From the IMG/VR virus record IMGVR_UViG_3300028384_001023, positions 1 to 57,138 of that record: a stretch of DNA of 57,138 bases. One strand, written 5' to 3'. Every line of letters starts with the position of its first letter. Position 1 is the first letter of the stretch. This DNA comes from a virus. Below the pieces are notes generated by a model. The model was given only the letters and a program-made list of their open reading frames with translations. It was not told the DNA's origin and ran no database searches. A program made the position numbers and the translations under genes. Below are positions 3,754 through 24,350 of this stretch, piece by piece.

Positions 3754-4331
3754 TGACAACAAGAGTTGAAATGCTAAAAGGTTTCCCACGTGGAATGACA
3801 GTATGTGAAGCTGGTACAAGGACTTGTGATTATACAAAATACATGGCTGGTAAATGGTTAGATGCGAAGAAAGTATGGATGATAGATTACCAAGATGAGA
3901 AGGTAAATCAAAACTTTGCAAAGGTCCACGAGAAATGTCAATTTATTCAAGGAAGATTTGACGAAGTAATACCACAAATCGGTGAGATCGATATGGTGTA
4001 TATTGATGGTTGGCATTCTTATGAAGATGTATCTCGAGATCTTCGTGATTTTGATCCTATTACAAAAAGGTATTTTGCTGGTCATGACTGGATTCCAGAA
4101 GATGCACCAATGGATTTTCATAATCCAAAGAAACATAAGTTTGAAGTAAGACAGGCAGTAACTGATTGGTTAGAAGAGACAGGCTACTATCTAACGTTTG
4201 TGACTGACGATCTTAGCAATAGACAACATGACCCTGACGCTAAAGGCGGTCAAAAACCTCTATACTCTTGGGTAGTTTCGAAGACTGAAGAAGACCGTGA
4301 TTTATTTTTGGAGAATTTAAATGCCACTTGA
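3753..4331 (+). CDS. Class I SAM-dependent methyltransferase-like protein (1)
   Basis: 192 residues with a Rossmann-like start MTVCEAGTRTCDYT (motif I region, residues 15-28), an acidic end of strand 2 (MIDYQDEK), then EIDMVYIDGWHSYEDV, the D-G-x-H pattern of FkbM/TylF-like or macrocin-type O-methyltransferases. It probably methylates a sugar or lipid-linked acceptor; this is inferred from the island context. It overlaps the previous gene by one base and the next, also a methyltransferase, by 11 bases. Confidence 0.6.
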   Translation: MTTRVEMLKGFPRGMTVCEAGTRTCDYTKYMAGKWLDAKKVWMIDYQDEKVNQNFAKVHEKCQFIQGRFDEVIPQIGEIDMVYIDGWHSYEDVSRDLRDFDPITKRYFAGHDWIPEDAPMDFHNPKKHKFEVRQAVTDWLEETGYYLTFVTDDLSNRQHDPDAKGGQKPLYSWVVSKTEEDRDLFLENLNAT

Positions 4332-4857
4332 TACACTTGATGTAATTTATAATAGGAATAAAACACCTAAGATTGGTTGGGGTGATAAAGGTACATTTCA
4401 TAGTTATATTGGTTACTATGCAGCAACATTTGAAGAATTCCGCGAAAGCGCAAAAAATGTACTTGAAATCGGTGTTAAAGGCGGACATTCTCTTAATATG
4501 TGGAAACAGTATTTCACTAATGCACATGTAATTGGAGTCGATATTAAACAACGTGATACTGTCTGCCCTACATGTCAAGTCATTTGGGGAGATGCTACGC
4601 TAAAAGAAACATTTACAAATGTACCAAAACTTGATATAATTATAGATGATGGTTCACATGATATCGAACATCAAATTAAATCTTTTGAGATCTTATGGCC
4701 TAAACTGAAAAAAGGTGGAGTCTATATCATTGAAGATGTTCAAGATATTGATTCAACTCAGGACAGATTAATGGCACTCGATGAGTCTGCTGTTTTACAT
4801 GACTTCAGAAAATTTCTTGGCAGATACGATGACGTGGTAGTTGAGTATAGAAAATGA
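4321..4857 (+). CDS. Class I SAM-dependent methyltransferase-like protein (2)
   Basis: 178 residues. Motif I VLEIGVKGGHSL (about 47-58), GVDI at strand 2, IIIDDGSHDIEHQ (about 103-115) and GGVYIIEDVQ at strand 5. This matches the MycE/cephalosporin-hydroxylase-like methyltransferase group, which acts on sugar hydroxyls in antibiotic pathways. The D-D-G-S-H motif is like that of its upstream neighbour, so the two may be distant paralogues. Likely role: O-methylation of a sugar built by this island (inference). Confidence 0.7.
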   Translation: MPLDTLDVIYNRNKTPKIGWGDKGTFHSYIGYYAATFEEFRESAKNVLEIGVKGGHSLNMWKQYFTNAHVIGVDIKQRDTVCPTCQVIWGDATLKETFTNVPKLDIIIDDGSHDIEHQIKSFEILWPKLKKGGVYIIEDVQDIDSTQDRLMALDESAVLHDFRKFLGRYDDVVVEYRK

Positions 4858-20190: not shown

Positions 20191-21114
20191 ATGTCATTCC
20201 AAAATCTAAAACGCAATCGCGATCAAATTTCCAAACTCGTTCAAGCAGCAGAAGCAGCTGGTGGTGGTGCATCAGGTGAAAAGAAAAACTATGATGACGA
20301 ACGTATTTGGAAGCCAACCGTAGATAAGGCAGGTAATGGTTATGCAGTACTACGATTCTTGCCGGCCGCCGAAGGTTCTGAACTACCATGGGTCAGATAC
20401 TGGGATCACGGCTTCAAAGGCCCAACCGGTCTATGGTATATCGAAAACAGCCTTACATCTATTGGTCAGCCTGATCCAGTTGGAGAACTCAACTCCCGGT
20501 TGTGGAATTCTGGCCACGAAGAAGACAAAGAAAAAGCCAGAAGTCAAAAGCGCAGACTCCATTATGTAGTCAACGCATTGGTCGTATCAGACCCTTCTGC
20601 TCCACAAAACGAAGGTCGTGTTGTACTCTATAAGTTCGGCAAGAAGATCTTTGACAAGATCACCGATAAGATGCAGCCTGAATTTGCGGATGAGACACCT
20701 GTAAATCCATTTGATATGTGGGAAGGTGCTGACTTTAAATTGAAGATTCGTCAAGTCGAAGGCTATCGTAACTACGATAAGTCAGAGTTTGCATCACAAT
20801 CTGCTCTCTTTGATGGAGACGAAACAAGGCTTGAAGAGACTTACAATAAGCTGCATAACTTGTCAGAATTTGCAGATCCAAAGAACTATAAGACTTATGA
20901 TGAGTTAAAAGCAAAACTTGCACGAGTTCTTGGTGAAGAAGCTGTAAATGGAGGTGCACCTCAAATGTCTCAGATGGCTCAGATGAATGAGCCAATGGCA
21001 GCTCCAGCTATGCCCGTAACAGAAGCTACACAGCCTGTTACAGCTGCTGAGATGAGCAGTCAAGACGACGATGATACGATGTCATACTTTGCTAAACTGG
21101 CAAACGACGACTAA
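20191..21114 (+). CDS. 32: Single-stranded DNA-binding protein gp32
   Basis: 307 residues. N-terminal basic helix (LKRNRDQISKL) for cooperative binding; OB-fold core with NGYAVLRFLP, PWVRYWDHGFKGPTG, QKRRLHYVVNALVV, KFGKKIFDKI and PFDMWEGADFKLKI; acidic C-terminal tail (SSQDDDDTMSYF). It coats single-stranded DNA in replication and recombination. The zinc-binding Cys/His cluster of T4 gp32 is replaced: the segment reads ENSLTSIGQPDPVGE and the whole protein has no cysteine. Its stop interlocks with the convergent gene on the other strand. Confidence 0.9.
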   Translation: MSFQNLKRNRDQISKLVQAAEAAGGGASGEKKNYDDERIWKPTVDKAGNGYAVLRFLPAAEGSELPWVRYWDHGFKGPTGLWYIENSLTSIGQPDPVGELNSRLWNSGHEEDKEKARSQKRRLHYVVNALVVSDPSAPQNEGRVVLYKFGKKIFDKITDKMQPEFADETPVNPFDMWEGADFKLKIRQVEGYRNYDKSEFASQSALFDGDETRLEETYNKLHNLSEFADPKNYKTYDELKAKLARVLGEEAVNGGAPQMSQMAQMNEPMAAPAMPVTEATQPVTAAEMSSQDDDDTMSYFAKLANDD

Positions 21115-22823
21115 TCTCTTGCAAACACTGGTGGTTCGGTGACGCCAATCAGGCCGCCACCGACCACTGTTGTTTCATTTCCACCCATAATATTATAACT
21201 ATCACCACCGATAGCTACACCTCCAGCACCCATCATATTATCATAACCAGAAGTCGTAGTTGATTGTAGGTTATTTGCTGTTTGAGGTTGAAGCTTCGAA
21301 GCACTCATGATTGGATCTTGATATCCAGTCGATGCATTATCTAAGTTCATGCCGACACTAGTATCAGTTGGTGTTGGAGCTCCGATACCATTAAGCATAT
21401 CATTTACCCAACCAAATCCATAGCCAAATGAATCGACCTTTTGACCTAGCATAAACTGTGCTAAGCCTTTACCTACAGCGCCAGCGCCTAAATAACCAGC
21501 TATACCACCAAGAGCACCGCCTATCAGTGTACCTGGACCTGGGAATACACTACCTAATGCAGCACCCAACATCGCTCCACCACCAGAACCAAGGACTGCA
21601 GATATTACTCCAGCTAAAGGAGCTATTTTACTTTCCATTGAACCAGGGGCGTTAAGGATACTATAGATGTCATAAGCACCAAATAAGTAACCTATACCAG
21701 GTGCACGTAAGAACTTAGCAATGCGAGGAAATTTATTTGATGTAGCGGCATTTGTAACGGCCGTATTAAGTCTTTCATTTTTTACTATTTGATTTGTCTT
21801 TTTATCTAGGATAGCACCATCTTTGGCCTTATATAAACCTTCTGCAGCAAGTTGTTTAGATGATAGTTTGCCTGCTTGTTTAGTTAATTGTCCTCGATCA
21901 AGCGTGGTCTTCGTTGCTGCTGTTACTCCTGCAGCTCCTACACCAGGAGGAGCTAATGATTCTGCAGCCTTACTTAATCCTGATAATGCGAGGGCACCAG
22001 CACCAAGTTTGGCTATCGTCTTTGTTAGTATTCTGAGTGTTCCACCTGGTTTGATCATTAGCGCTAATGCACCAAACGTGATGGCCATGTCATCTAAGTT
22101 TTTATAGAAATCTTCACTTGTGACTTCGCCTCGTAATAGAGCATTTAATCCTGTAAATGAATCACCGACAATGTTATTGATCTTTGCAACTATCTCATCA
22201 GTAGTAGGGATTAAACCTTCTACACCAAATACACCGTCAAACCATGTTGAAAACTTTCCCCATCCAATTTCGAATGACTCAACCAGTTTTGTTAACTGTT
22301 CTTCTGTAGCTTTTATGTTTTCAGGTGTAGCTAATGCACCACCAATCAAACCGATAGCACCGAGGCGTTTGCCAAATATGCGTAAGATACCATAACCAGT
22401 CAGTCCACGTCCAACAGCATTTGTTACTTCTTCACTAAATCCCTGTGATTGAAGATAGTCTGCTACTGCTTCTGCCATGATGAAGGCTAATCCACCACGT
22501 AAGAGTCCACCAACTAAGCCTTTACCAAGCAATGCACCCATACCAGGAATACCGAGACCCATGAGTGTATTTTCCATGCTACCGAATAGGTTACCACCTG
22601 TCTTCGGTCTGGCTGCAGCTTGCCGTTCACGAGACTTTTCGAGTCTTTCTTCGGCCTGTGTTTCTAACTCATCGGTCTCATTACTCTCGAGCTTAATCAA
22701 GAAGTTTGAAAAGTTATTATTCAAGGCTTGTAGCTGAGAGTTATTCTCACGCATCACTTGACCCTGATCTTTGAGCTCTTCATTCTGATCGTTGAGTTGG
22801 GCTGCTACTTCTTTAAGACTCAT
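21111..22823 (-). CDS. Tape-measure-like tail/baseplate-hub protein (T4 gp29 position)
   Basis: 570 residues. The N-terminal 80 are a polar coiled coil (NDQNEELKDQ... EERLEKSRER), then a Gly-rich hydrophobic body with several membrane-like segments (near 95-120, 140-170, 250-290, 400-450) and a low-complexity C-terminus rich in Gly, Thr and Asn. That is a tape-measure profile, and the length is close to T4 gp29 (590). It lies directly downstream of gp26-gp51, where tape measures follow their chaperones in many tailed phages. Sequence identity to gp29 was not tested. It ends tail-to-tail with gp32 (stops overlap by two bases). Confidence 0.6.
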   Translation of the reverse strand: MSLKEVAAQLNDQNEELKDQGQVMRENNSQLQALNNNFSNFLIKLESNETDELETQAEERLEKSRERQAAARPKTGGNLFGSMENTLMGLGIPGMGALLGKGLVGGLLRGGLAFIMAEAVADYLQSQGFSEEVTNAVGRGLTGYGILRIFGKRLGAIGLIGGALATPENIKATEEQLTKLVESFEIGWGKFSTWFDGVFGVEGLIPTTDEIVAKINNIVGDSFTGLNALLRGEVTSEDFYKNLDDMAITFGALALMIKPGGTLRILTKTIAKLGAGALALSGLSKAAESLAPPGVGAAGVTAATKTTLDRGQLTKQAGKLSSKQLAAEGLYKAKDGAILDKKTNQIVKNERLNTAVTNAATSNKFPRIAKFLRAPGIGYLFGAYDIYSILNAPGSMESKIAPLAGVISAVLGSGGGAMLGAALGSVFPGPGTLIGGALGGIAGYLGAGAVGKGLAQFMLGQKVDSFGYGFGWVNDMLNGIGAPTPTDTSVGMNLDNASTGYQDPIMSASKLQPQTANNLQSTTTSGYDNMMGAGGVAIGGDSYNIMGGNETTVVGGGLIGVTEPPVFARD

Positions 22824-22824
22824 G

Positions 22825-23010
22825 TTATCCTCGTGCTTGTTGCGCCTGGATTTCTTTCTCTTTCAAATAATCTAGTAACATGTTCACGTATATCTCCCTC
22901 TCCCAGGGAATCATTGTATCGAGTTCTGTCAAAGAGTAACTAAAATGTTGAATCAATTGAAAGTTCGTACGATAATAGTTCTCTAGTGTCTCATGAGAGA
23001 GGTTGATTAG
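22825..23010 (-). CDS. 51: gp51-like baseplate hub assembly factor, no normal start codon
   Basis: The frame reads (L)INLSHETLENYYRTNF and goes on through SLTELDTMIPWEREIY to QQARG, stop at 22827-22825; about 60 residues. MIPWEREIY is characteristic of the small T4 gp51 family, which helps hub assembly. There is no ATG, GTG or TTG at the N-terminus; the only in-frame ATGs (in DTM and VNM) would delete half the domain. Expression is proposed by -1 frameshift from gp26 at the adjoining UUUUUUC, or by initiation at AUC (23007-23005) nine bases after GGAGGA. One base separates it from the tape-measure gene ATG. Confidence 0.75.
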   Translation of the reverse strand, partial: LINLSHETLENYYRTNFQLIQHFSYSLTELDTMIPWEREIYVNMLLDYLKEKEIQAQQARG

Positions 23011-23711
23011 AAAAAATCCTCCAGTCCTTTCAGCTGTCTTTCGTTATGGTGATTACATTCAGTACAATAAAAATCAACGTCTTGTTTGATCGAAGGCATG
23101 TTCTCTAAGTAACCTGTCAACTTCTCAAACTGTGTAGTCGTAAGTGAATCGATAAAGGCTTTTACCTCATCACGTGGTTCATCACGAATTGCAATCACTT
23201 CATCTTCTGTTGCGACTGTATCAATACAATTAATCAATAACTCCATCATCACTTCGGTTTGTGGTGTATCATCGGTAATGACATTTTGTAAAAAGTAATC
23301 ATAACTTGGATGCTTCATCTTTACAGTAATGTCATCAGTCAACTTAATCTCATTCTCTTGTATAGTACCTTCGACCTTAATATCATCAAGACGAATGTGT
23401 ACCTCGTTATCTACAGAGCAATTAGAGCACTGCATCATCAACTGTGAAGATTCTCCTACAGACTTTGTACGAATCATAGTAAACATATAGTCTACGTCAT
23501 ATGTGGTTAACTCGTTGATGTTTACATTTTCAACACATGAGTTAATAGTATCCATGATCGCCCGTAACACGGACTTTTTATCTTGTGACTCTCCAGCTAA
23601 AAGTAGTACCTTCTGTTCTTTAACCAGAAACGGACGATACCTGACTTCTTTCTGTGTTGAAGGTATGACTAAATCATATTGTGGAGAATCATTCAATTTT
23701 GGTAATGCCAT
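23007..23711 (-). CDS. 26: gp26-like baseplate hub / tail assembly protein
   Basis: 234 residues. The T4 baseplate-hub gp26 family pattern is visible: IPSTQKEVRYRPFLVKEQK near the N-terminus, YDVDYMFTMIRTKSVGE in the middle, and two CxxC pairs (Cys95/98 and Cys216/219 followed by HH) that could bind zinc. It acts in hub assembly, probably as a chaperone-like partner of the tape measure. ATG is preceded by AGGAG (rc of 23714-23721). The 3' end carries the slippery sequence described separately. It lies ten bases after the tube-like gene. Confidence 0.8.
   Translation of the reverse strand: MALPKLNDSPQYDLVIPSTQKEVRYRPFLVKEQKVLLLAGESQDKKSVLRAIMDTINSCVENVNINELTTYDVDYMFTMIRTKSVGESSQLMMQCSNCSVDNEVHIRLDDIKVEGTIQENEIKLTDDITVKMKHPSYDYFLQNVITDDTPQTEVMMELLINCIDTVATEDEVIAIRDEPRDEVKAFIDSLTTTQFEKLTGYLENMPSIKQDVDFYCTECNHHNERQLKGLEDFF
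23010..23016 (-). promoter_or_regulatory. Candidate -1 ribosomal frameshift site (U UUU UUC)
   Basis: Reading the - strand, the last sense codons of gp26 are UUU UUC, preceded by U of GAU, giving the X XXY YYZ heptamer in the correct phase and followed at once by UAA. A -1 slip reads on as CUA AUC AAC into gp51, producing a predicted 295-residue gp26-gp51 fusion. GGAGGA abuts the heptamer upstream; a weak CUCU/AGAG stem is possible eight bases downstream. Confidence 0.6.
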
Positions 23712-23720
23712 TTATCACTC

Positions 23721-24350
23721 CTAGAATATATTACCTAGTCCTGTACTCGCAGATATCCAACCTTGGCTACTAACATTTGGCTGCCATTCGGTATACGATA
23801 ATTGAACAGTAACTTGTACAAGACCATCAAGCTCATTGTTTAATTCAATAGAATTTACTGATGTCGGGAATGCTTCAAGCAATTTGACACCATAGACTGT
23901 GTTTCCTCCAAGCCCAATATTTACATTTAGTGGACCAAGACTTACGTTTTTATTAATGATTGGTTTTCTTAGTTGGTGTATTTCAACAGTTGCAGCATAT
24001 TCACTCTTATACTTCGCTTCGTAAGTATTATTATTGTAAACGTAATTTCTCCAACTATCGAAGTATTCAACAACTCCATAATCGTTCATGACATAAAATG
24101 TCATGCTTACATCTGGATTGGCATAACCATAGGCTATCTTCTCATTGACCATACCAATCTGTCTATCAGATGTTAATATTTGTTTTCCAGGCAATTCAGC
24201 ACTAGCACATAATAGGTTTAACGAATTACCTCCGAGTAATCCACCTAAAAATCCTGATATTTGACCTGGTAACACGACTAAAAATTGGTTACTTCGAGCG
24301 AAACCAAGTTTGATCGATGCTAATGATTTGAGTTGATCGATTGTTGCCAT
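23721..24350 (-). CDS. Tail-tube-fold protein, probably gp54-like tube initiator
   Basis: 209 residues. N-terminal LGFARSNQFLVVLPG followed by LLCASAELPGKQI is the start of the gp19/gp54/gp48 tail-tube fold; MTFYVMNDYGVVEYFDSWRNYV and VQLSYTEWQP near the end complete it. It could be the baseplate tube initiator (gp54) or an extra tube protein; gp54 is favoured because the other baseplate-hub genes are here. A Gly-rich loop (GGLLGGNSL) is inserted near residue 35. Its ATG overlaps the upstream stop by one base. Confidence 0.65.
   Translation of the reverse strand: MATIDQLKSLASIKLGFARSNQFLVVLPGQISGFLGGLLGGNSLNLLCASAELPGKQILTSDRQIGMVNEKIAYGYANPDVSMTFYVMNDYGVVEYFDSWRNYVYNNNTYEAKYKSEYAATVEIHQLRKPIINKNVSLGPLNVNIGLGGNTVYGVKLLEAFPTSVNSIELNNELDGLVQVTVQLSYTEWQPNVSSQGWISASTGLGNIF

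Follow-up and report, generated by a model that had tools for sequence, protein, structure and literature searches.

A conserved slippery heptamer at the gp26/gp51 junction of T4-like phages suggests programmed −1 frameshifting of a tail assembly chaperone gene

The gp26 and gp51 reading frames of the viral DNA analysed here (57,138 nucleotides; hereafter the window) very probably produce a short and a long tail assembly chaperone through programmed −1 frameshifting at the gp26/gp51 junction. We infer this slippage from the anatomy of the locus, its conservation among relatives, the codon constraint at the slip site, the selection acting on the −1 frame and the similarity by descent between T4 gp51 and the fusion, each of which was observed directly in the sequences.

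All features of the locus lie on the minus strand. The gp26-type gene (23007–23711) encodes a putative short tail assembly chaperone of 234 residues (TAC-N, the equivalent of lambda gpG), which belongs to the family PF12322 T4_baseplate (E = 2e-56; 191.5 bits against a cut-off of 24.5) and matches PHROG 150 baseplate hub (E = 8e-59). Its 3′ end reads AAA GGA CTG GAG GAT TTT TTC TAA and, as described in the earlier note on this DNA, the terminal GAU UUU UUC UAA contains a slippery heptamer U UUU UUC (23010–23016) that has the correct 0-frame phase and abuts the gp26 stop codon (23009–23007). The −1 frame opens 34 nt upstream of this stop and runs uninterrupted into a gp51-type segment of 61 residues (LINLSHETLENYY...; 22828–23010), the C-terminal part of a predicted 295-aa fusion, which matches the gp51 family PHROG 634 (E = 2e-24). 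The segment ends at a TAA (22827–22825) located a single base before the ATG of the next gene at 22823, again in agreement with the earlier description, and the reported lack of an N-terminal ATG, GTG or TTG also proved correct: the first TTG is residue 19 and the first ATG is residue 33 (MIPWEREIY). An SD-like AAAGGA (23025–23030), whose AGGA core ends 8 nt 5′ of the heptamer, is a candidate frameshift stimulator. In-phase T TTT TTN occurs seven times in the 17,417 codons of the 60 genes called in the window, and only the gp26 copy is near a gene end. Rfam and tRNA scans across the window gave no matches.

The gene located 5′ of gp26 (23721–24350) encodes a tail tube protein (PHROG 45 tail tube, E = 4e-30), and the gene that follows gp51 (21111–22823) encodes a 570-aa protein that is the probable tape measure, as judged from its position, its length and a weak similarity. 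The match to a PHROG tape measure family is weak (E = 6e-7 over 57 residues), and comparison with T4 gp29 gave a negligible hhalign result and an hmmsearch score of 24 bits with high bias. A long ORF lies immediately 3′ of gp51 in 102 of the 128 loci compared below.

In the proposed mechanism, the majority of ribosomes would terminate at the gp26 stop codon to give the 234-aa short chaperone, while a minority would move back a single base at U UUU UUC, where both Phe-tRNAs would pair again with UUU; base pairing between 16S rRNA and the SD-like AAGGA would assist the slip. The slipped ribosomes would bypass the gp26 stop and complete the 295-aa fusion of gp26 and gp51. If these products act as lambda gpG and gpGT do, the probable tape measure protein, encoded immediately downstream, would be coated by the short form, and tail tube subunits would be brought in by the less abundant long form via its gp51 part. 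A structure model of gp26 (AlphaFold2, pLDDT 87) was compared with the PDB using Foldseek, and the matches of highest probability were chains of HK97 gp13 (2ob9, 0.63 and 0.41) and 3fgx (0.35), which were not significant (E of at least 0.65); both HK97 gp13 and 3fgx are described as tail assembly chaperones (PMC9603447). Searching PDB sequences with a profile of gp26 gave no meaningful match.

Relatives were collected from two IMG/VR scans and from isolate phage records and were chosen by protein similarity rather than by the slip motif. This yielded 170 loci carrying both gp26 and gp51, with 128 distinct junctions; the sequences are related to one another, so that junction counts overstate independence. 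In all 170 loci, isolate genomes included, gp51 lies in the −1 frame relative to gp26, and an in-frame fusion was found in none. An in-phase U UUU UUN is present at each of the 128 distinct junctions with its six U's invariant, the last base being U in 75, C in 49, A in 3 and G in 1, and an alignment of 20 junctions has no gaps over 101 columns, with the six T's again invariant. The same arrangement is seen in near relatives from two different metagenome datasets (L002 and L003/L082; gp26 ~95–96% identical), and KVP40, phiM12, Milchi, BUCT608, Desulfovibrio 7757, RHph_Y68, AsFcp_2 and IG49 carry the motif too. The proposal made in the earlier note, that the phage makes both gp26 and a gp26-gp51 fusion by −1 frameshifting, is the reading that the evidence best supports, and the comparison of junctions in related phages that the note had called for speaks for it.

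The heptamer is also constrained at the level of codon choice. Its first Phe codon is TTT in 125 of 125 aligned sequences, as against 56–82% TTT at the other conserved Phe columns of gp26. The codon preceding the slip Phe has T as its third base irrespective of the residue it encodes (Asp, Ser, Asn, Ala, Arg or Phe), and GAT usage at the other conserved Asp columns of gp26 is 73–79%. The last codon of the heptamer varies between TTT and TTC, rarely TTA or TTG, in keeping with the freedom of position Z in X XXY YYZ. In 46 of the 128 junctions the −1 frame opens no more than 3 nt from the heptamer, so that ribosomes could switch frame ahead of the stop essentially only on the heptamer. In three relatives, L070 and L076 (both near 4705–4729) and L132 (near 3998–4022), the gp26 frame continues for ~24 nt beyond the heptamer before its stop, indicating that direct contact between slip site and stop codon is not essential.

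A purine-rich SD-like element (GGAGG, GAGG, AGGA or AAGG) is located 8–10 nt 5′ of the heptamer in most of the 128 junctions. Its predicted anti-SD pairing has a mean of −6.6 kcal/mol compared with −5.2 kcal/mol in synonymous shuffles and is lower than in the shuffles in 106 of 128 junctions, while elsewhere in gp26 the difference is at most ~0.5 kcal/mol. SD stimulators are established for the −1 frameshifts of dnaX and IS elements (PMC5009743), and the conservation of this element suggests that it is likely a stimulator here. The earlier note had assigned such a role to a GGAGGA abutting the heptamer. This motif is present (23022–23017), but it is the nearest strong SD-like motif in only ~12 of the 128 junctions, and the likely stimulator is instead the conserved AAGGA/GGAGG 8–10 nt upstream. 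Downstream RNA structure was rejected as a stimulator, as folding gave z = 0.74 and consensus pairs were absent in 20 relatives. In E. coli constructs, the poly-U heptamers U_UUU_UUA and U_UUU_UUU are reported to be much less shift-prone than A_AAA_AAG (PMC5009743), and the slippage rate at gp26 may consequently be low.

The same fusion would arise from ordinary translation if RNA polymerase slipped on the T run and added one U to some transcripts, since one extra U gives the same frame. Transcript slippage is efficient on runs of nine T's (PMC5009743), and runs of 8 or 9 are found in 72 of 128 relatives, but the run is just 6 T in 52 of 128, the window included. Moreover, neither the invariant codon phase of the run nor the conserved SD-like element is needed by transcription, and we regard this explanation as improbable compared with slippage of the ribosome.

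Between the opening of the −1 frame and residue 8, 99 of 128 junctions have no ATG, GTG or TTG, and the 29 relatives with a possible start in this interval share no common start position. These observations bear on whether gp51 could be a separate protein, made either from a codon other than AUG (e.g. AUC, residue 2) or through re-initiation once gp26 has terminated. In favour of such a protein are the ATG, GTG or TTG codons near the stop in some relatives, such as the TAATG of KVP40, and the fact that SD-like elements ahead of gene ends can serve re-initiation (PMC5009743). The general lack of a usual start argues against it, however, and the invariant U UUU UUN with its codon bias plays no part in initiation. 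The conserved SD-like element, furthermore, lies ~14–17 nt from the first post-slip codon, a spacing too long for normal initiation. A separate gp51 protein as the general product of the locus therefore has a similarly small chance of being correct. In KVP40 (L161), S-CRM01 (L168), BUCT608 (L169) and RHph_Y68 (L171), the slip site is accompanied by an ATG that overlaps the gp26 stop (TAATG/TGATG), and a separate short gp51 may possibly be made there by re-initiation as well.

Downstream of the heptamer the −1 frame contains no stops, and single changes in it comprise 8019 synonymous and 2382 nonsynonymous substitutions, whereas the other two frames contain on average 4.7 and 6.7 stops and their changes are mostly nonsynonymous. 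These codon comparisons point to strong purifying selection on the −1 frame, beginning with the first residues after the heptamer. Residues L4, H6 and N16 of gp51, well ahead of the first Met, are invariant (n = 42 sequences), which argues against an internal start at Met33. A short gp51 protein beginning at an internal codon is what several public annotations imply, and in the records of C48C1 and Melnitz-3 the start lies within the segment; the conservation of residues 1–32, the selection in the same frame and the presence of the equivalent residues in T4 gp51 all speak against it, and we consider it very improbable. The main alternative named in the earlier note, a 6-versus-7 T sequencing error splitting one in-frame gene, would require a change of only one base in the tract to join both frames, but it is excluded for practical purposes, since the same −1 arrangement is shared by all 128 distinct junctions and all 170 loci, from many assemblies and isolate genomes, with none in frame.

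Programmed frameshifting at this junction also agrees with the organization of the T4 proteins. T4-type gp51 aligns with columns 13–281 of 304 of the in-silico fusion, passing through the slip site (hhalign E = 1.3e-13), while T4-type gp26 stops at the slip site when aligned to the fusion. T4 gp51 is thus the counterpart of the long form, of which the marine 'gp51' represents only the C-terminal part. The T4 proteins (Tevenvirinae) are homologous to those described here, gp26 being the short form and gp51 consisting of a gp26-like domain with the gp51 extension, but in T4 they are encoded by two separate, oppositely oriented (divergent) genes, whereas here there is a single overlapping locus with no gp51 start.

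Lambda gpG/gpGT, whose mechanism class is long established (PMC5009743), and P2 E/E′ likewise comprise an overlapping ORF pair close to genes for the tail tube and the tape measure (the latter only probable in the window) in the same order, with a −1 slip (proposed for the window) shortly before the first ORF ends and a second ORF without its own start. The present locus differs in encoding PF12322/PHROG 634 proteins, in the U UUU UUN slip site adjoining the stop, and in having an SD-like element with no RNA structure detected. The link between T4 hub assembly and the lambda G/GT scheme suggested in the earlier note holds, with T4 gp51 itself as the long form, and is largely prior art. In the Vandenendeviridae and Andersonviridae, a −1 frameshift with a conserved GTTTTT near the TAC-N end has been described, and the C-terminal extension of the chaperone is annotated as a separate gene (PMC12846349). 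The position of the frameshift and the separate annotation resemble the situation here, while the phage families and the slip sequence are different.

The gp26/gp51 frameshift in T4-like phages is itself largely prior art, as far as citing papers convey the work of Vladimirov, Gautam and Davidson 2022 (Virology 566:9–15). That study, which named the T4-like chaperones and by its title has the same subject, is cited for T4-like phages that carry a short and a fused chaperone gene (PMC10885494) and is credited with poly-T slip sequences in the TAC-N genes of T4-like phages (PMC12846349). What the present analysis possibly adds is how widely the site is conserved, the SD-like element and the way public annotation splits the gene.

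Wherever gp51 is listed in the annotated records that we inspected, it is a separate CDS and never joined to gp26. Because it is treated there as a gene of its own, in several cases with an internal start, gp51 is probably misannotated, although it is in wide use as a marker family. Within the isolate phage records (L161–L180), several gp51 CDS have internal starts, for example 2579–2683 in L162 and 2058–2201 in L165. The gp51 of cyanophages was reported to be ~20% of the usual length, and that of marine T4-like phages seemingly lacks the first ~200 residues (Sullivan et al., PMC3037559); the frameshift reading would explain this, as the missing residues would be gp26. It would also bring lambda-like and T4-like phages under one tail-assembly scheme and open to direct test whether frameshifting or duplication underlies the T4 hub genes.

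In the Ackermannviridae, gp26 ends with R ATT TTC ATY TAA (K751, Vi01, phiD3 and SNUABM-02) or G GTT TTC ATC TGA (3M), and a conserved −1 frame extension follows (281 records). By sequence comparison, these phages likely use the same chaperone frameshift with another slip site, R AUU UUC or G GUU UUC. The chances appear evenly balanced that the gp26/gp51 frameshift is ancestral and prevailing across the T4 superfamily, with the T-evens having swapped it for gene duplication and the Ackermannviridae retaining it at a different, T7-gene-10-like slip site. In the K751 (L174), Vi01 (L182) and 3M (L184) records the −1 extension of gp26 is unannotated; it has no nearby start, the first GTG or ATG lying 32–35 nt beyond the gp26 stop.
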